Positions 962 through 27,576 of a DNA stretch of 35,802 nt are shown one piece after another. Under the pieces are notes generated by a model that had not been told where the DNA came from, did no database searches, and worked only from the letters and a program-made list of their open reading frames with translations. Numbering within the stretch: the stretch's first letter is position 1; each line of letters opens with the position of its first letter. Made by a program: the position numbers and the translations under genes. Origin of the DNA: Paludibacteraceae bacterium (GTDB taxonomy: Bacteria > Bacteroidota > Bacteroidia > Bacteroidales > Paludibacteraceae); assembly GCA_017517845.1 (NCBI GenBank), contig JAFWXW010000015.1:1-35802 (forward strand), in the 5' to 3' direction.

Positions 962-1969
962 TTATTTCCTAAATCTATCTTGTAAAACTTGCATCTTATC
1001 TATAATCTGATTGAAGGTCGGCTTATTAGAACCATATATCATATTCACCAACATTTCTGCATAGTCCTTCTCCCATACGGATATAATATCTTCACGTGGG
1101 ATAAGTACTATTCTTTTGCGTACATCTGGCGTGTAGTCCATATCTTTAACCGAGGTGAATATTTCTCTGTGGTGCCTAATATTTTCCCACAAATCATTAT
1201 CTTTTACAGCCGTTATTGCAAAATCCTTATCCATCATCTGATAGAGGTCGTACAAATGGCGTGATTTTCTATTTGCACTAGCACCATGTCCTGGAACAGA
1301 GAACAATTCATGCAATAAGAAAACTTTTTCTATGAATGTTTTTCCTGCAGCAGCAGTTGAAATATTAGAATCTATAATGCTTGTTTGAATTGTTGGAAAG
1401 TTTTCTTCTACAAGACTCTTAACCTTATTCATTTCGTATGGTTCGGAAAGAGAGCGAGCACCTATTTCCAACATAACAACTGGCTTCAAATAGTTCAACT
1501 CGCCTTGAATAACACTCTTATATGTAATCCATATTTTTCTTGGCTCAGGGTATGTATTGTCACCCTCACCATCTTTTTCTACTTCAATCGTACATAATGC
1601 CATCAAACCATATTGCTTGATGGCATCGGATAAAGTTTTATAAAACTCTTCGCGAACAAAGGTAGATGATTCTTTACGAAGTTTCTTAATCTGTTTCTTG
1701 GTTAGGTCTCCCTCCAATCCAAATTGTGAACGGTCTATAGCAAGGTCTATATCTTCTGAAAATCTGCTAATATGTTTACCAACCTTGCTCAACGATGTTC
1801 CACCTTTGAATATTAGTTTATCAGCAAAAGGGAGAGTGAAAACAATCTGCAATATTGTTGTAACCCACAAGTCCTTTTCAATGGCTTGTGCCGGTAATCC
1901 AATGCGTCCTTCTGCTGCTTGTAATACTTGTCTCTGTTCTTCTATTGTGAGTGAAAAGTAGTTATTCAT
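962..1969 (-). CDS. AbiEii/AbiGii-family nucleotidyltransferase toxin
   Basis: This 335-residue protein has the DNA polymerase beta-like nucleotidyltransferase core of AbiEii (DUF1814). The segment KGGTSLSK followed by RFSEDIDLAI supplies the G-[GS]...D-x-D metal and nucleotide site near residues 55-78. A later LEIGAR and EKVFLLHELF...KSRHLYDLYQM match the family's downstream conserved blocks. AbiEii-type toxins halt growth by modifying RNA acceptors in type IV toxin-antitoxin systems; the target here is unknown. The start overlaps the antitoxin gene by 8 nt, so the two are translationally coupled. The length is typical and no key residue appears to be missing. Confidence 0.9.
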   Translation of the reverse strand: MNNYFSLTIEEQRQVLQAAEGRIGLPAQAIEKDLWVTTILQIVFTLPFADKLIFKGGTSLSKVGKHISRFSEDIDLAIDRSQFGLEGDLTKKQIKKLRKESSTFVREEFYKTLSDAIKQYGLMALCTIEVEKDGEGDNTYPEPRKIWITYKSVIQGELNYLKPVVMLEIGARSLSEPYEMNKVKSLVEENFPTIQTSIIDSNISTAAAGKTFIEKVFLLHELFSVPGHGASANRKSRHLYDLYQMMDKDFAITAVKDNDLWENIRHHREIFTSVKDMDYTPDVRKRIVLIPREDIISVWEKDYAEMLVNMIYGSNKPTFNQIIDKMQVLQDRFRK

Positions 1970-2567
1970 ACGCTTTTTTAATTATGTTTCTAATCCATAC
2001 AGGCATTAACTTTAAGTCTGCCATAACAGACTCTTTGGGTTCGTTCTGTAATAGTTCCCCAATTCGTTTTATCTGCCAATCTTCAACATTTTCTTTCTTT
2101 AATGATTTTAGAGCAAATGTAATCAGCATTGCCAAACGACTCTGAAATGCCAGGTTTTTAGGTGCTGTGTTTTTGAAAGTTATGCCCCTACCATTGGATA
2201 TTTCAACATGTCTTTTTGAACCATCGGTCAGATATACATAGTTCATAGGTACTTGTGTTGAAAGTCCAAGTACATTCAGTGCATAAGCACCTGTAGGGAC
2301 TATTCGAGCATGATCTCGTTTTGCCATTGCCTCCGCTATTTGCTCAAACGACGGACGTAAAATTCCCAAACCCAATTTTTCATTAACTTCGGGATAACAA
2401 TATATACCCTGAGCAACCCTAATTATCAAACCTTCTTTACAGAGCCTTGTTAGAGTTTGCCTAATAGCATCAGATGTTCCCAAGTCAACAAAATCATCGG
2501 AAAAAAAGATACTTCCTTTTTCCAATGACAAAATTTGTTTTTCTATTTTTGACGTTACGCTATCCAT
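1962..2567 (-). CDS. AbiEi-like antitoxin / DUF6088 transcriptional regulator
   Basis: This 201-residue protein begins with a winged-helix-like segment (IEKQILSLEKGSIFFSDDFVDLGTSDAIRQTLTRLCKEGLIIRVAQGIYCYP, roughly residues 8-60). That segment is the pattern of DUF6088 and AbiEi antitoxins. The central part (GAYALNVLGLSTQVP, YLTDGSKRHVEI) also fits the family. It is the first gene of the pair and is overlapped by the toxin gene. AbiEi proteins known elsewhere bind inverted repeats in their own promoter; a perfect 9-bp inverted repeat overlaps the promoter here. Antitoxin and autorepressor roles are inferred from family and context. Confidence 0.87.
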   Translation of the reverse strand: MDSVTSKIEKQILSLEKGSIFFSDDFVDLGTSDAIRQTLTRLCKEGLIIRVAQGIYCYPEVNEKLGLGILRPSFEQIAEAMAKRDHARIVPTGAYALNVLGLSTQVPMNYVYLTDGSKRHVEISNGRGITFKNTAPKNLAFQSRLAMLITFALKSLKKENVEDWQIKRIGELLQNEPKESVMADLKLMPVWIRNIIKKAYE

Positions 2568-9345: not shown

Positions 9346-10056
9346 TTATTTAAGTTTGTCTTTTGCTTCTTGAATAGCTTCTGGTGTAGATACTTTTTGT
9401 CCTTGTTTATATGCTACAATAAAAGCATCTGGGAAGTCTTTGGTTATTTCATTGCGTTTATTAAATACTGTATTTACATCATAAGGACCTATTAAGTATT
9501 TGTATAATTTGTTTTCGTTTAAAATCTTGGTGGGAGTATGTCCTTTGAATACAGCATTATCTGCATTGTAATTATTTTTAGAAACTAAGTACTGAATGAA
9601 AAACTCAATCTCAGTTGAATTAGGAATTAGGAATGAGGAATTAGGAATTATTTCTCCTTTCTCATTTTTCAACTCTCCTTTATCTTCTTTATTTTCTTCC
9701 TTAACTCCTAACTCCTCACTCCTAACTCCTAACTCCTCCTTAACTCCTAGCTCCTCACTATTTGAGTTTCCGCTTTTCTTATCAAGTTCGTGTTTGTATT
9801 CTTTAATACCATTGAAAATGGCAGTAGCTATTTTTACTTGATTTTCATTATTGTTTAAGTATTTTTCTTCTTCTTTGTTAGAAATGAAACCTAATTCTAT
9901 AAGAACAGAAGGCATTGCGGTTGCTCTCAATACTAGGAATCCTGCTTGACGCACACCTCTATCGTTTCTTTTACTTGCATTGATCATTTTCTTTTGGATA
10001 AAATCTGCACAAGTAATACTTCTGTCCATATATTGGTCTTTCATAAATTCAAACAT
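9346..10056 (-). CDS. C-terminal part of split N-acetylmuramoyl-L-alanine amidase
   Basis: This frame continues the amidase that begins at 10520. Reading upstream of its first ATG, the same frame is open back to the A7 tract at 10102-10096 and encodes the expected YEGFDPNS-type sequence. It holds the rest of the Amidase_3 fold including the catalytic glutamate (SVLIELGFISNKEEE). A linker follows, then a C-terminal SPOR-like peptidoglycan-binding segment (IEFFIQYLVSKNN...YKYLIGPYDVNTVFNKRNEI). The linker is almost wholly encoded by heptamer repeats (SEELGVKEELGVRSEELG ... IIPNSSFLIPNS). One added A would join both parts into one protein spanning 9346-10520. It is either a real frameshift, a slippage site or a sequence error. 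Confidence 0.8.
   Translation of the reverse strand: MFEFMKDQYMDRSITCADFIQKKMINASKRNDRGVRQAGFLVLRATAMPSVLIELGFISNKEEEKYLNNNENQVKIATAIFNGIKEYKHELDKKSGNSNSEELGVKEELGVRSEELGVKEENKEDKGELKNEKGEIIPNSSFLIPNSTEIEFFIQYLVSKNNYNADNAVFKGHTPTKILNENKLYKYLIGPYDVNTVFNKRNEITKDFPDAFIVAYKQGQKVSTPEAIQEAKDKLK
9617..9760. repeat. Inverted heptamer arrays inserted in the amidase linker
   Basis: The left arm (9617-9650) is about five copies of GAATTAG-type units. The right arm (9702-9760) is seven or eight copies of TAACTCC-type units, which is the opposite orientation. They enclose a 51-bp pyrimidine-rich core. The whole insertion keeps the reading frame of the amidase. The layout (GGAATTA arm, core, TAACTCC arm) is the same as around the four-helix-bundle gene at 26020-26457 but without a gene inside. 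Confidence 0.8.
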
Positions 10057-10067
10057 TATGTATGAAT

Positions 10068-10520
10068 CTACAGAATTGGGGTCGAAGCCTTCATATTTTT
10101 TTCGTAGTCCTCTTCGAGCATAATTACAGAGTTTTCCAACATAGCAACTTCCATATTCTCTTTGCTACGAGATACCCCCAATGTAAAGGTTTCCATGCCT
10201 TTGGCAGAAGAATTTTTTGAAGAATTGGTATGTATAGATACAAAAAGGTCTGCTTTTTTTCTGTTGGCTATACGTGCACGCTCATTTAAATCTACAAATA
10301 CGTCTTTGTCACGTGTATAAATAACTTTGGCGTCTGGGATATTCTTTTTTATCATATCACCGACCAATAAAGCGTATCTTAGATTTATGTTTTTTTCTTT
10401 TGAGAAACTACCCACAGCACCAGCATCGTGTCCACCGTGACCAGCATCTAAAACAACTGTGAAAGCATAAGAATGGAGTATAAATCCTAAAAAAATGAGA
10501 ATAGTATATAATTTTTTCAT
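10068..10520 (-). CDS. N-terminal part of split N-acetylmuramoyl-L-alanine amidase
   Basis: It starts with a signal peptide (MKKLYTILIFLGFILHSYA) and the first half of an Amidase_3 zinc hydrolase. The zinc ligands are visible in DAGHGGHDAGA (His), SKEKNINLRYA (Glu) and FVSIHTNSS (His). After EEDYEK the frame leaves the family sequence (NMKASTPIL) and stops at 10070-10068. The break coincides with a run of seven A (minus strand, 10102-10096); eight would restore EDYEKKYEGFDPNS and the downstream frame. The enzyme cleaves the lactyl-L-Ala bond of peptidoglycan. A minus-strand -7 element TACTTTTG (10550-10543) lies upstream. Confidence 0.82.
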   Translation of the reverse strand: MKKLYTILIFLGFILHSYAFTVVLDAGHGGHDAGAVGSFSKEKNINLRYALLVGDMIKKNIPDAKVIYTRDKDVFVDLNERARIANRKKADLFVSIHTNSSKNSSAKGMETFTLGVSRSKENMEVAMLENSVIMLEEDYEKNMKASTPIL

Positions 10521-15089: not shown

Positions 15090-16012
15090 TAAAATGGGCT
15101 CTTATAGCTAATAAACATGCAGGAACTCGTTCCTCTAAGAAGTTTTGGGAGAAAATGGATATTATTTTTTCCAATGAGGGACTTGCTGTGGAATACTTCT
15201 TTACAGAAAAAGTAGGTCATGCTAGAGAATTGGCAATGGATATTGTAAAGAAAGGCTATAAGAAAATAGCTGTGATGGGTGGCGATGGCACTTTTAGTGA
15301 AGTGATAGATGGATTGATGAAATCTAATGTAGATATTTCTGAAGTATCAGTGGGATTAATTCCATTTGGAACTGGAAATGATTGGGGACGCTATTGGGGT
15401 TTGGATAGAAATATAGAAAAGTCTGTAAAAATATTGGCAGAAGGGACTCCAACCCTTGTAGATGTGGGCTTGATAAAATATAATGCAGGTGAAAGAAATA
15501 TTACTAGATATTTTATCAATGCTTATGGATTGGGATTTGATGCAAAAGTACTAGAACTTACCAATAGAATGCAACATATATTTAAAGGTGCTTCTTGGAC
15601 TTATACATTGGCTCTATTTATGACAATATTTGTGAATAGGTCACAGATAATGGAATATGATTTTGGAGAAGAAAAATTTAAGGGACTAAGTTACACAGCA
15701 TCTATTGGGAATGGTTGTTTTACTGGTGGGGGAATTAAACAAACTCCAGAAGCTAGGGTAGATGATGGTGTGTTTGATGTTATGATAGTGGAGAATCTAA
15801 ATCTAGTAAAAATCTTAAAGGCAGTGAAACTATTATTTACTGGAAGATTATTAGAACATGATTCTGTGCATCTTTTCAGAACTAATAAAATGACTATAAA
15901 GTCTGAAAAACCTATCCTGTCAGAGGTAGATGGCATCTTCCAAGAAAAAACACAATGTATAGAAGTGGAATTGATTCCCCAAAAGATAAATTTTATAACT
16001 CCTAACTCCTAA
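15086..16012 (+). CDS. Diacylglycerol/lipid kinase family protein
   Basis: This 308-residue protein is of the DagK/YegS/BmrU type. It has [15 protein letters not shown] at the start, the glycine-rich nucleotide site [14 protein letters not shown] (about residues 68-81), and [15 protein letters not shown]. The C-terminal substrate domain includes [18 protein letters not shown]. It probably phosphorylates a lipid or sphingoid alcohol; the substrate is unknown. The final residues ITPNS and the stop are encoded by the heptamer array at 15996-16058, which has replaced or extended the natural 3' end. Confidence 0.9.
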
Positions 16013-16058
16013 TTCCTAACTCCTAACTCCTAACTCCTCACTCCTAACTCCTAACTGT
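15996..16058. repeat. TAACTCC heptamer array between convergent genes
   Basis: Eight consecutive heptamers of TAACTCC type (variants TAATTCC, TCACTCC) end in TAACTGT. The lipid-kinase stop (16010-16012) and the tilS stop (16046-16044) both lie inside it, so the last residues of both proteins come from the repeat. Confidence 0.9.
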
Positions 16059-20935: not shown

Positions 20936-21008
20936 CTCGCTTCGCTCGTGATTTTGCTCACGCTCTGCAATGCTTAAGCAAGCTTATCATTGCTCTCGCT
21001 TACTCGCA
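20936..21008. repeat. Palindromic repeat related to the lptD 3' element
   Basis: GCAATG (20967-20972) and CATTGC (20988-20993) flank TTAAGCAAGCTTA. This matches the reverse complement of the palindrome at 13322-13350 almost base for base. CTCGC-rich flanks are shared as well. The tsaB stop (20989-20987) lies inside it. Confidence 0.75.
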
Positions 21009-21709
21009 AAATTCCTAACTCCTAACTGGTTCTTTGGAACCGTAACGTTAGCAGCTTTGAGATAAAATGGTTCAAAGTATGCTAGGTCTGCAAAATCTTT
21101 ATTGTTGTAAGCCTCATTGGCCAATTTTATCATACTTGTGGCTAATGGATAAACATCACTTAAGAAAGCAGCATTCTTGTGTGTGATAAATTGTTTGCAC
21201 TTTTCTGCACCATTACCACAGAAATAAATTTTTCTATCCTTTAATATTTCTGCAAAACTATTTTCATCTATGATTTCTGGCTCTGTGGCAGATACCTCAT
21301 TGAGTCTTGTATCATATATACAACGATAAACTTCCATTCTGCGTGCATCTATCATAGGACATAAAAGTGCATCTTCTTCTAGATTATATTTTTCTAGTGC
21401 ATTTTGTGCTATGATTTTTAGGGTAGGAATGGTAATTAGAGGGATTTCTGAACCATAACATAAACCTTTGGCAAATGAAGTGCCAATCCTAAGTCCTGTA
21501 TATGAACCAGGTCCAATACTTAGTGACACTGCATCTAAATCTTGAGGTTTTAGGTTCGATTCTTGTAACAAATCTCTAACGAATACTCCTATTAATTCAC
21601 TATGATTATTGCCAGTGAAATTTTCTCTAGAATGCTTGCAAATTTCATTTTCAGAAATGCATACAGAGCATACTGTGGTAGATGTTTCTATGTGTAAAAT
21701 TTTGCTCAT
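20987..21709 (-). CDS. tsaB: tRNA threonylcarbamoyladenosine biosynthesis protein TsaB
   Basis: TsaB is the non-catalytic partner of TsaD in making t6A37 of ANN-reading tRNAs. The ASKHA-type blocks are clear: ILHIETSTTVCSVCI at the start, ENFTGNNHSELIG, SIGPGSYTGLRIGTSFAKGLCYG (about residues 64-86) and MIDARRMEVYRCIYD. The normal family end 'FEPFYLK...TVPKN' is present. It is then followed by QLGVRNFASKREQ, which is encoded by two heptamers and the adjacent palindromic repeat. The repeats have therefore rewritten the C-terminus. The minus-strand promoter TATCTTTG (21726-21719) leaves only a few nucleotides of leader. Confidence 0.93.
   Translation of the reverse strand: MSKILHIETSTTVCSVCISENEICKHSRENFTGNNHSELIGVFVRDLLQESNLKPQDLDAVSLSIGPGSYTGLRIGTSFAKGLCYGSEIPLITIPTLKIIAQNALEKYNLEEDALLCPMIDARRMEVYRCIYDTRLNEVSATEPEIIDENSFAEILKDRKIYFCGNGAEKCKQFITHKNAAFLSDVYPLATSMIKLANEAYNNKDFADLAYFEPFYLKAANVTVPKNQLGVRNFASKREQ
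21010..21028. repeat. Short heptamer repeat at the tsaB 3' end
   Basis: AATTCC, TAACTCC and TAACTGG in tandem, the same family as the arrays at 9617-9760, 15996-16058 and 26020-26457. It encodes LGVRN in tsaB. Confidence 0.7.
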
Positions 21710-24987: not shown

Positions 24988-25754
24988 AACCTTTAATTCT
25001 AATTACTAATGATGACGGCATAGAGGCTCGTGGCATTCACTCTCTAGTGGAAGCTGTGCAGCATCTTGGTGATGTGGTGGTAATGGCTCCAGATGGACCT
25101 CGTTCTGCTCAGTCTAGTGCCATTACTATGAATACTCCTTTGCGTATTTGGAAACATTTTGAAAAAGATGGTCTCAAAATGTTTCGTTGCAATGGTACTC
25201 CTACAGACTGTGTAAAAATTGCGGTATATAATATTCTGGAGAGAAAGCCTGATATTATATTGGCTGGTATCAATCATGGTGACAATACTTCTATTTCTGT
25301 GATTTATTCTGGTACTATGGGTGCTGTGCTTGAAGGCTGTATTGAGGGTATTCCTTCTGTTGGTTTCTCACTTTGTACTCATGACCCTAGAGCAGATTTT
25401 TCTGAGGCTATGAAATATGCTTCTATTATCACTGAAAAAGTGTTGCGCGAGGGACTTCCAAAGGATGTTTGCCTTAATGTGAATTTCCCTGTTGGGGTAA
25501 AACTCAAAGGTTTTAAAGTGGTTCGTCAGGCAAATGCACGTTGGCAAGAACGTTATGTGGTGCGCGAAGACCCAAATAACAACACTTATTATTGGCTTAC
25601 TGGTGAGCTTCACAACAATGAACCTGAGGCGGAAGATACAGATGAGTATGTGGTAAGAAATGGTTATGCTTCTGTGGTGCCTTGCCATGTGGATATGACT
25701 CATTATGCTACTGTTCAGCAACTTAAATCTTGGGATTATGAAGAAACTGAATAA
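24984..25754 (+). CDS. surE: 5'/3'-nucleotidase SurE
   Basis: SurE dephosphorylates nucleoside monophosphates. The N-terminal metal site ITNDDGIEARG (residues 6-16) is followed by VVMAPDGPRSAQSSAITMNTPLRI, FRCNGTPTDCVKIA, GINHGDNTSISVIYSGTMGAVLEGCIEGIPSVGFSL and VNFPVG. All conserved blocks are intact, and the 256-residue length is usual. The start overlaps the antiporter stop as ATGA; its own end is overlapped by the small membrane-protein gene. Confidence 0.96.
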   Translation: MKPLILITNDDGIEARGIHSLVEAVQHLGDVVVMAPDGPRSAQSSAITMNTPLRIWKHFEKDGLKMFRCNGTPTDCVKIAVYNILERKPDIILAGINHGDNTSISVIYSGTMGAVLEGCIEGIPSVGFSLCTHDPRADFSEAMKYASIITEKVLREGLPKDVCLNVNFPVGVKLKGFKVVRQANARWQERYVVREDPNNNTYYWLTGELHNNEPEAEDTDEYVVRNGYASVVPCHVDMTHYATVQQLKSWDYEETE

Positions 25755-26016
25755 TTTCTGGATAGGACTAGTTAGTTGCTTTTTTGCTCCGTTGCTACTG
25801 TTTTTGGCTACTTGGACTGCACTTTCTGGTTCTCCTATTTCCGAAATAGGGCATTGGCTTCGCCAACCAGTTTTTATGCAATATCTTATTTTCTGTATGC
25901 TCCCAGATTTAGTTATGATTTTCATAGGGTATAAATCTGATAGTTATAATTATTGTCGTGGCGGGGTGTTGGGAGTTACTCCTTATTTGTGTATGTTGTT
26001 TTATCTATTCACGTAA
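25738..26016 (+). CDS. Small membrane protein between surE and lpxB
   Basis: From ATG 25738 it gives 92 residues with three hydrophobic segments: FWIGLVSCFFAPLLLFLATWTAL, VFMQYLIFCMLPDLVMIFIGY and VLGVTPYLCMLFYLF. I do not recognise a named domain. It overlaps the surE stop by 17 nt, and a similar position before lpxB is usual for this kind of protein in Bacteroidota, so it is probably a real cotranscribed gene. An earlier in-frame ATG at 25705 lies deep in surE and is not preferred. Confidence 0.75.
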   Translation: MKKLNNFWIGLVSCFFAPLLLFLATWTALSGSPISEIGHWLRQPVFMQYLIFCMLPDLVMIFIGYKSDSYNYCRGGVLGVTPYLCMLFYLFT

Positions 26017-26019
26017 TAA

Positions 26020-26457
26020 GTTAGGAGTGAGGAATTAGGAGTTAGGAGTTAGGAGTTAAAAACCATCTTATTAATATTTTTATGGAGAAAAGAAGTATAA
26101 TTAAAAACAAGAGTGAAAATTTTGCTATTAGGATTATTAAACTTTATAAATATCTAAATAGTAAAAGTGAATATGTGTTATCTAAACAAATTTTACGTTC
26201 TGGAACTAGTATAGGAGCAAATGTGAATGAGGCTCTATGTGGTATCAGTAGAAAGGACTTTTTATCAAAAATGTATATAGCTTATAAAGAGGCTGTAGAG
26301 ACTATATATTGGTTAGAACTCTTATATAAGACGGATTATATTAATAATGATGAATATATGTCAATATCAATAGAAGCAAAAGAAATCTATAAAATATTAA
26401 GTAGTATAACAAAAACTACAAAAATAACTCCTAACTCCTAACTCCAAATTCCTAACT
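26020..26457. mobile_element. Heptamer-bounded element carrying a four-helix-bundle gene
   Basis: The left arm (26020-26058) is five GTTAGGA-type heptamers plus GTTA. The right arm (26425-26457) is four TAACTCC-type heptamers plus TAACT, in opposite orientation. They bracket the 119-codon four-helix-bundle gene, whose last codons and stop (KITPNS) are inside the right arm. The unit lies exactly between a conserved gene pair (small membrane protein and lpxB), 3 nt before both ends of intact neighbours. Mobility is inferred from layout and from gene-less relatives at 9617-9760; no transposase is present. Confidence 0.55.
26082..26441 (+). CDS. Four-helix-bundle protein (S23/IVP-like)
   Basis: This 119-residue, nearly all-helical protein has the family hallmark LSKQILRSGTSIGANVNEALCGIS (residues 34-57). 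It continues with FLSKMYIAYKEAVETIYWLELLYKTDYI. The family includes proteins encoded in 23S rRNA intervening sequences and accessory proteins of diversity-generating retroelements; neither an rRNA nor a reverse transcriptase is near. Its C-terminus (ITPNS) is repeat-derived. It interrupts an otherwise conserved surE-lpxB gene order. Confidence 0.9.
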   Translation: MEKRSIIKNKSENFAIRIIKLYKYLNSKSEYVLSKQILRSGTSIGANVNEALCGISRKDFLSKMYIAYKEAVETIYWLELLYKTDYINNDEYMSISIEAKEIYKILSSITKTTKITPNS

Positions 26458-26460
26458 AAT

Positions 26461-27576
26461 ATGAAGTATTATCTTGTTGCGGGAGAGGCATCGGGGGACT
26501 TGCATGGTTCTAAACTGATGCGTGCGTTAAAAATGAAAGACCCTAATGCTGATTTTAGGTATTATGGTGGAGACAAAATGCAGTCTGAGGGCGGCGTTTT
26601 GGTACGTCATTTCCGTGACACTGCTGTGATGGGCTTCATAAATGTGGTACTCAACCTGCGCAAGATACTTTCCAATATTGAATTTTGTAAAAAAGACCTA
26701 AAGGAGTATGCTCCAGATGTGCTTATTCTTATAGATTATCCTGGATTTAACCTTAAAATTGCAAAGTATGCAAAAGAGGAACTTGGTCTGAGGGTGATTT
26801 ATTATATTCCTCCAAAAATTTGGGCTTGGAAGGAGCATAGGGTAGAGCAAATAAAAAAATATGTGGATGAGGTTTACGCAATTTTCCCTTTTGAGGTGGA
26901 TTTTTATGCTAAGCATGGAGTGAAAGCTACTTACGTGGGAAACCCTTGTGTAGAATCTATTCTTGGTAGAGCAATTACTCCCAAAGGTGAATTTCTAAAG
27001 AAAAACTTTCTAGAAGATAAGCCTATTATTGCTTTGTTACCTGGTAGTAGAGCTCAAGAGGTAAAATCTTCGCTTCCTATTTATAGAGCATTGGTTGGAG
27101 AAAAGTTCAAAGACTATCAGTTTGTGCTTGCTGCTACTTCTGCAGTTAATCAAGAACTTTATTCAGAGATAGGTGATCTCAAACTAGTCTTTGACCAAAC
27201 ATACGATCTTCTTACTCACGCATCTGCTGCTGTGGTAAATTCTGGCACTGCAACTTTGGAAACTGCACTTATTGGCACTCCACAAGTGGTTTGTTATCAT
27301 GTTGCTTTTGGCAGACTTGCTTACGCAATTTTCTCTCGTGTGCTTAAAATCTCTCACGTGTCACTAGTAAATATCATTGCCCGAAAAGGTGTGGTAAAGG
27401 AACTTTTGGCACATTTCTTCACTGCTGAAAATACCTCAGCCGAACTTGAAAAACTTCTTTTTGATACTGCCTATCGCAACGAAATCCTCTCTGGCTATGC
27501 CGAAATTTCCCAAACTCTTGGCACTACCATAGCTGCCGTTACCGCAGCAGAGTTGATTACTTGTTCTAAAAAATAA
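26461..27576 (+). CDS. lpxB: Lipid-A-disaccharide synthase
   Basis: LpxB (glycosyltransferase family 19) joins UDP-2,3-diacylglucosamine and lipid X in lipid A synthesis at the inner membrane. The hallmarks are AGEASGDLHGSKLMRALK (residues 7-24), GGDKMQSEGG, VLILIDYPGFNLKIAKYAKE, YYIPPKIWAWKEHRVEQIKKY and LLPGSRAQEV. The later NSGTATLETALIGTPQVVCYH is also present. The 371 residues are complete. The ATG follows the heptamer element by 3 nt, so its ribosome-binding context now comes from the element. Confidence 0.97.
   Translation: MKYYLVAGEASGDLHGSKLMRALKMKDPNADFRYYGGDKMQSEGGVLVRHFRDTAVMGFINVVLNLRKILSNIEFCKKDLKEYAPDVLILIDYPGFNLKIAKYAKEELGLRVIYYIPPKIWAWKEHRVEQIKKYVDEVYAIFPFEVDFYAKHGVKATYVGNPCVESILGRAITPKGEFLKKNFLEDKPIIALLPGSRAQEVKSSLPIYRALVGEKFKDYQFVLAATSAVNQELYSEIGDLKLVFDQTYDLLTHASAAVVNSGTATLETALIGTPQVVCYHVAFGRLAYAIFSRVLKISHVSLVNIIARKGVVKELLAHFFTAENTSAELEKLLFDTAYRNEILSGYAEISQTLGTTIAAVTAAELITCSKK

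Follow-up and report, generated by a model that had tools for sequence, protein, structure and literature searches.

In REP/RAYT systems, one or more genes are bracketed by inverted short repeats that are also dispersed through the genome as singlets and inverted doublets, mostly in intergenic DNA, and the bracketed gene encodes a Y1 HUH transposase. Other elements combine short repeats with a gene of the S23 family. The intervening sequence of Coxiella 23S rRNA, for example, has been described as a unit of about 430 nt with complementary ends that contains an S23 ORF, and its heptamers vary in number between strains (PMC4990558). The same paper states that S23 proteins have no known function, and it describes the Xanthomonas S23 protein as a homopentameric toroid (PMC4990558; also a reference title in PMC10053308). 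Homology to the S23 family (PF05635) has also been suggested for Avd, an accessory protein of diversity-generating retroelements that acts beside a reverse transcriptase and is essential to retrohoming (PMC10053308).

Heptamer repeats have a separate literature, in which TAACTGA (Beggiatoaceae, cyanobacteria, and some Bacteroidetes), GGGAATC (Xanthomonas), and GGGGA(T/C)T (Nostoc) are reported as dispersed and mainly intergenic, with 70 and 75 convergent pairs of arrays in Xanthomonas (PMC4692102). They have been interpreted as products of slippage, as quadruplexes, and as regulatory or translational control sites, and the portions of these descriptions available to us link no S23 gene to them. 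Our literature search, whose scope excluded preprints and most subscription papers, likewise found nothing that links S23 genes to dispersed heptamer arrays, the exception being the Coxiella heptamers upstream of the S23 ORF. Here we describe a locus at which an S23 gene and heptamer arrays form one unit.

A single S23 gene between inverted heptamer arms

The DNA analysed here (the window) is a stretch of 35,802 nucleotides from a Paludibacteraceae bacterium (contig JAFWXW010000015.1). A first-pass annotation had proposed that inverted heptamer arrays bracket a single S23-like gene, that the stop codon of this gene lies inside the right arm, and that no known transposase is encoded. All of this is borne out: the arms, of six boxes on the left and five on the right (the latter with a mismatch in one spacer), enclose a PF05635 gene that is the only gene of the unit, and the position of its stop can be read directly from the sequence (Table 1). 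In profile searches, the protein matched PF05635 (23S_rRNA_IVP; E=2e-27, 95.9 bits against a curated cut-off of 33.8) and TIGR02436 (E=2e-31, 108.4 bits against a curated cut-off of 24); two hypothetical-protein models also matched, both below cut-off, and the searches gave no match to transposase or nuclease families.

Table 1. Positions of the S23 unit and of further heptamer arrays in the window.
Feature	Position	Strand	Remarks
S23 / four-helix-bundle protein gene	26082-26441	+	119 aa; PF05635 and TIGR02436 matches
Left arm	26019-26057	+	six boxes (A[AG]T[TG]) at a 7-nt period; spacer (code) AGG
Right arm	26426-26457	-	32 bp; five boxes in the opposite orientation to those of the left arm; holds the stop codon of the S23 gene
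Left half of gene-free convergent pair	9618-9649	+	five boxes
Right half of gene-free convergent pair	9703-9734	-	five boxes
Unpartnered array	15996-16056	-	nine boxes; overlaps two convergent ORFs at their 3' ends
Short array	21010-21027	-	three boxes; close to the 3' end of ORF 20987-21709 (-)

The unit sits between the ORF at 25705-26016 and a gene at 26461 that we take to be lpxB, a name which, like surE, is carried over from the first-pass annotation by label alone. TAAT flanks the unit on both sides, the relatives being too distant for this to prove a duplication. Modelled as RNA, the unit is predicted to pair its arms into a single stem (-105.2 kcal/mol, a raw value without a shuffled control), and in this predicted fold the S23 ORF is surrounded by complementary, stem-capable ends.

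The unit is reminiscent of REP/RAYT (TnpA_REP) and REPIN systems in its bracketing inverted repeats and in the dispersed solo and inverted-doublet copies of these repeats. It differs in its gene, as a Pfam scan of the sole gene of the unit returned PF05635 only and no Y1 HUH transposase, and in its repeat, which consists of 7-nt boxes in tandem rather than of a palindrome. With the Coxiella intervening sequence, compared here by its published description, the unit shares an S23 ORF, complementary ends, and tandem heptamers upstream of the ORF; however, the Coxiella element lies in rRNA, whereas the window unit is flanked by protein genes and not located in a 23S rRNA gene. Avd resembles the S23 protein through the suggested homology and through its role in nucleic acid transactions, but it partners a reverse transcriptase, and no PF00078 match was found in the host genome (81% complete).

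Inverted arms recur at S23 loci of other genomes

When contigs were scanned with the window S23 protein, a relative turned up at 156 places; the best 80 were retained, and the 76 of them that have 200 bp on each side make up the tested set. Inverted period-7 arms on both sides (reverse complements with at most one mismatch) were found at 54 of the 76 S23 loci, as opposed to 2 of 251 control ORFs from the same loci. Thinning to less than 85% protein identity left inverted arms at 28 of 45 S23 loci, with none detected at the other 17. The period is specific: under a stricter cut, a lag of 7 was found on both sides at 45 of 76 loci, and lags of 5, 6, and 8-11 at none of the 76.

The two arms of a locus also belong together: of 58 pairs, 54 had agreeing left and right units, against 16.1 on average and at most 25 in 2000 shuffles. 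If an S23 gene had landed in an existing direct array, its flanks should share one orientation, an origin that can be rejected since 54 of the 58 loci with both arms have them inverted and 1 has them direct.

Loci with inverted arms (54 in total) were found in Bacteroidota (23/34), Bacillota (14/17), and Cyanobacteriota (11/13), at the one locus each from Planctomycetota, Fidelibacterota, and Lentisphaerota, and at all three loci without a named phylum; Pseudomonadota, Spirochaetota, Campylobacterota, and Fibrobacterota together gave 0 of 6 loci tested. Many of the records are metagenome bins, and single cross-phylum cases may therefore be contamination. S23 units with the AGG code occur in bins labelled Clostridia as well as Bacteroidales (loci L073, L086, and L089), through either horizontal transfer or bin contamination. 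Plasmids and phages can be set aside as carriers, since matches to the window S23 protein were confined to 25 plasmid records (of 72,556) and 2 phage records (of 50,697).

A shared core, a changeable code, and a preference for five boxes

The heptamer varies among loci, with a shared core and a variable 3-nt code. The core A[AG]T[TG] followed by three bases, which we picked by eye from these very data, accounts for 136 of 139 arms. Of 36 distinct heptamers, 33 conform to it; on average 11.7 did so after their letters had been shuffled (at most 21 in 1000 rounds), and 12, 14, and 5 did when the 36 were reversed, reverse-complemented, and complemented. Among published heptamers, TAACTGA conforms to the core, its reverse complement rotating to AGTT-ATC; the fit of GGGAATC from Xanthomonas is inexact, and that of the Coxiella heptamer GACAGAT, described as present in two to four copies, is partial (3 of 4 positions). 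In a tree built from 102 S23 proteins, the eleven most frequent codes require 21 changes compared with 55.6 when shuffled, a value as low being reached in 0 of 200 shuffles; near-copies add to this clustering, and the codes AGT and CGT are unclustered.

Exactly five boxes were counted in 100 of 183 arms of at least three boxes (111 loci, some present twice) and in 39 of 75 arms of the thinned set. A five-box array spans 32 bp, which is the commonest arm length, and some long arms have clearly grown in situ. Five boxes are not universal, given that four units are commonest in the published Xanthomonas arrays (PMC4692102) and that the Coxiella element is described with a degenerate heptamer in addition to two or three others, i.e. 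two to four (PMC4990558).

In 40 other genomes of the phylum, only 2 of 40 high-scoring S23 genes of another subfamily passed the strict period-7 test for inverted arms. When the spacer was left free, the same box word was found in both arms at 27 of 40 of these loci and at 13 of 104 controls, which were drawn from the loci of the contig scan with the window protein (shuffled partners 6.8, maximum 15 in 1000). At both-arm score thresholds of 3.5 and 4, this second subfamily exceeded the controls (21/40 vs 5/104 and 11 vs 5); at high scores it did no better than they did (4.5, 1/40 vs 2/104; 5, 1 vs 0). Four contiguous boxes in 17 and five in 20 of 48 arms were the commonest numbers. The second subfamily keeps a fixed box and lets the spacer vary, the opposite of what is found in the subfamily of the window. 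A truncated second S23 copy in the host genome resembles this second subfamily and has a left arm of five boxes; its code was not dispersed in 539 kb of the host genome.

The only solved chain matched by the window S23 protein was 2rld, an entry with five chains.

Heptamer arrays are scattered through the host genome

Within the window, TAACTCC occurs 22 times against 3.84 expected, a count reached in 0 of 100 shuffles. The first-pass annotation had suggested a wider search for such arrays, and in the host genome (1.68 Mb, 38 contigs, 81% complete) the TAACTCC doublet TAACTCCTAACTCC is present in 169 copies, compared with 0 when reversed; likewise, four A[AG]T[TG] boxes at a 7-nt period have 395 matches, compared with 2 for the reversed pattern.

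A closer view comes from 539 kb of the host genome, in which there are 83 arrays of at least three boxes. By strict count, there were 48 arrays of two boxes, 26 of three, 7 of four, 33 of five, 9 of six, 5 of seven, 2 of eight, and 1 of nine. Most of these arrays are solo, many being without a pairing partner, and neighbours within 500 bp were convergent in 12 cases, including the window unit, and divergent in none; same-orientation neighbours within this distance numbered 12 and 10, many of them fragments of one interrupted array. By a simple ORF rule, 45 of the 83 arrays are intergenic, 27 overlap a gene end, and 11 lie inside an ORF. Relative to tandem genes, arrays lie about equally often on the same strand (30) and on the opposite one (28). 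The host genome therefore holds dispersed singlets, inverted doublets, and a gene bracketed by inverted repeats, as in REP/RAYT systems. The expectation that four-helix-bundle genes would be enriched beside the arrays has to be turned round: S23 genes strongly predict arms, but few arrays in the host genome adjoin an S23 gene, as 2 of the 83 are the arms of the window unit.

A palindrome-like repeat of 70-80 bp (TGTGCAAGCGAGAGCAG... to ...GCGAAGCGAGTAATT) directly adjoins about 11 of the 83 arrays, sometimes with boxes on both sides, and looks as if it inserts into arrays (host contigs C2, C3, C5, and C8, the window near 21010, and loci L064 and L155). Elsewhere in the window, two neighbouring ORFs at 962-2567 (-) resemble an AbiEii/AbiEi-type toxin-antitoxin pair.

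Dispersed arrays tend to carry the codes of resident S23 genes

For twelve genomes reached through the loci, PF05635 matches were listed, their arms were read, and arrays were taken from stretches away from S23 genes. Of these arrays, 56 of 86 were within one mismatch of an S23 arm from the same genome, compared with a mean of 23.3 and a maximum of 52 in 2000 swaps of arm sets between genomes. The cleanest case is a genome (G044) with two PF05635 genes of codes CAG and GAA, both of which dominate its listed arrays, and 20 of 21 arrays in its stretches match a resident arm. Matching was poor in two genomes (G041, 4/15; G050, 4/16), and two of the twelve had no arrays in the stretches sampled.

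At the level of the phylum, S23 genes were present in 116 of 148 sampled genomes, the host genome included. With the latter left out, the median number of box-pattern hits was 31 in the 115 genomes with S23 and 1 in the 32 without (p=8e-9), and hits rose with S23 number (Spearman 0.63), shared ancestry being kept in for both values. The reversed control pattern was likewise commoner with S23 (median 8 vs 0); among the 115 S23 genomes, the pattern exceeded its control in 91 and fell below it in 15, the control being equal or higher in 24. Seven of the 32 genomes without S23 carry at least 10 pattern hits. Four genomes without a PF05635 match (G077, G126, G148, and G158) have 48, 22, 178, and 168 pattern hits with 1, 0, 1, and 79 for the reversed control, and S23 may have been lost there, be more distant, or be replaced by a different partner protein.

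Occupied and empty sites, and the apparent unit of spread

If gene and arms are one mobile unit, as the first-pass annotation had supposed in pointing to the spacing before lpxB, sites without the element should exist in relatives. This is what we observe: in four relatives (loci L035, L040, L043, and L045 of G007, G015, G017, and G012, all on the plus strand), the small ORF runs into lpxB and the element is absent. A crude motif check found no S23 motif upstream of lpxB in 29 other loci, some of whose contigs end early. In addition, two genomes of the same genus (G009 and G013) have S23 genes 83% and 80% identical to that of the window, with the same AGG code, at a different site, between what we take to be a methyltransferase-like gene and a DUF1343-like gene. 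Both of these neighbour genes are present in G007, where the flanking DNA is 81-82% identical and no S23 lies between them. One S23 subfamily thus occupies two sites in one genus, both of them empty in one relative (G007).

The gap before lpxB has further occupants: arrays of other heptamers without S23 lie there in G006 (L048) and G010 (L038) and also at L052, so that landing in this gap may have happened repeatedly. Close to lpxB, period-7 arrays are also found at L042 and L046.

What spreads appears to be the arm rather than a deleted element. At L065 (3385-4100), four mini-copies, each about 179 bp long and retaining both arms and both gene ends, stand in tandem behind a full S23 unit; L068, a close relative of L065, has a single unit. 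A search for the mini-copy in the L065 genome and two relatives, in which 40 of 46, 40 of 54, and 11 of 11 candidates were scored, gave 29 matches: 11 fell in three S23 units, and the other 18 were of 26-34 bp, i.e. arm length. Dispersal of internally deleted elements is therefore rejected for the candidates scored. The gene-free pattern that had been noted at 9617-9760 is real and convergent, but its reading as a non-autonomous derivative gives way to that of a convergent arm pair, based on the L065 case, the one tested, in which only arm-length matches occur elsewhere. This pair lies wholly within ORF 9346-10056 (-), which together with 10068-10520 (-) is presumably an amidase-like gene. The division of that gene into two ORFs perhaps arose by frameshift, and its downstream ORF carries the five-box pair in frame.

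Traces of insertion were sought in two ways. Target-site duplications of 4, 5, 6, and 7 bp were counted 3, 2, 2, and 1 times at 34 arrays, compared with 3.8, 1.3, 0.7, and 0.2 when shuffled, and hence show no clear excess there. No clean new array was found in 23 aligned syntenic pairs of S23 loci, in which period-7 gaps reflect copy-number change inside existing arms or poorly aligned stretches.

Proposed mechanism and alternative explanations

The gene-plus-repeat design, together with matching scattered repeats in several phyla, suggests a minimal mobile system without a recognised transposase. Judging from sequence comparison, we consider it probable, though by no means assured, that the window unit is a minimal selfish element or its domesticated descendant, similar to REP/RAYT, in which the gene of a pentameric S23 protein lies between inverted, typically five-box arms. 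The window S23 protein would form the pentamer of its family, with each subunit contacting one box, and the 3-nt spacer, or in the second subfamily the box itself, would confer specificity. The pentameric ring may read five boxes at each end and bring the ends together, and S23 could also act in trans on arms elsewhere. Arms of about 32 bp would then spread singly or in convergent pairs, mainly between genes, in much the way that REP/REPIN sequences do around a RAYT gene. As for cutting and joining, we would guess that S23-bound DNA is acted on by the replication or repair enzymes of the host.

The main rival places the system at the RNA level, where arms might pair in the transcript and be cut by RNase III, or the ring might wrap single-stranded boxes as TRAP does; S23 and the arrays would then be an RNA-binding regulon and their spread incidental. 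The predicted single-stem fold of the window unit, itself without a shuffled control, is in keeping with this, as is the freedom of A/G and T/G within the core, which would suit a reader of single strands. A parallel exists in the Coxiella intervening sequence, which has an S23 ORF with tandem heptamers upstream and a terminal stem of 28 bp, and which RNase III cuts (PMC4990558). Boxes of the two arms also agree slightly more when aligned (228/280, permuted mean 215.4), which would favour pairing, although the 28 loci behind this count are in part redundant and the agreement may stem from position preferences common to both arms. Against an action in the transcript stand the absence of a strand preference and the many arrays without a pairing partner. 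We regard the RNA-level explanation as unlikely, if still deserving of attention.

A greater stretch is required to make S23 itself the transposase or nuclease, as a new catalytic four-helix-bundle recombinase. The unit has no other gene, and many polar residues are invariant in 48 aligned S23 proteins (e.g. E30, Q36, N47, E50, K63, K69, E70, E73, and Y76). Yet no nuclease or transposase family was matched, no target duplication excess was seen, and the homologue Avd is described as an accessory protein alongside a reverse transcriptase (PMC10053308); catalysis by the four-helix bundle is at most putative, and such an enzyme seems to us improbable. Spread driven by a reverse transcriptase was also discarded, albeit weakly, as PF00078 has no match in a host genome that is 81% complete. 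The least credible explanation by far is that these are ordinary simple-sequence repeats expanded by slippage, which S23 genes adjoin by chance. Slippage is one published reading of the bacterial heptamer excess (PMC4692102), and some arms are plainly expanded in place. Slippage alone is nonetheless contradicted by inverted arms with a covarying code and a five-box mode and by the matching of array codes to those of resident S23 genes, and empty sites likewise speak against it.

Implications for the S23 family

Heptamer repeats and S23 proteins were each already known; as far as we have searched, no described system couples dispersed arrays to a cognate ring protein of the S23 family. Whether the whole PF05635 family consists of ring-and-five-box mobile systems, with one box per subunit, a changeable code, spreading 32-bp arrays, and no known transposase, and whether it is the common source of the unexplained bacterial heptamer repeats and of S23-coding 23S rRNA intervening sequences, is a generalisation that we judge evenly balanced between true and false. 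The pairing gives S23 proteins, which are widespread in the sampled phylum, and heptamer repeats a testable partner in each other. It also suggests a recognition rule of one subunit per box, whose natural specificity code might be deciphered from sequences. Furthermore, the link points to a possible source of S23-type 23S rRNA intervening sequences and may explain the heptamer repeats of other bacteria.
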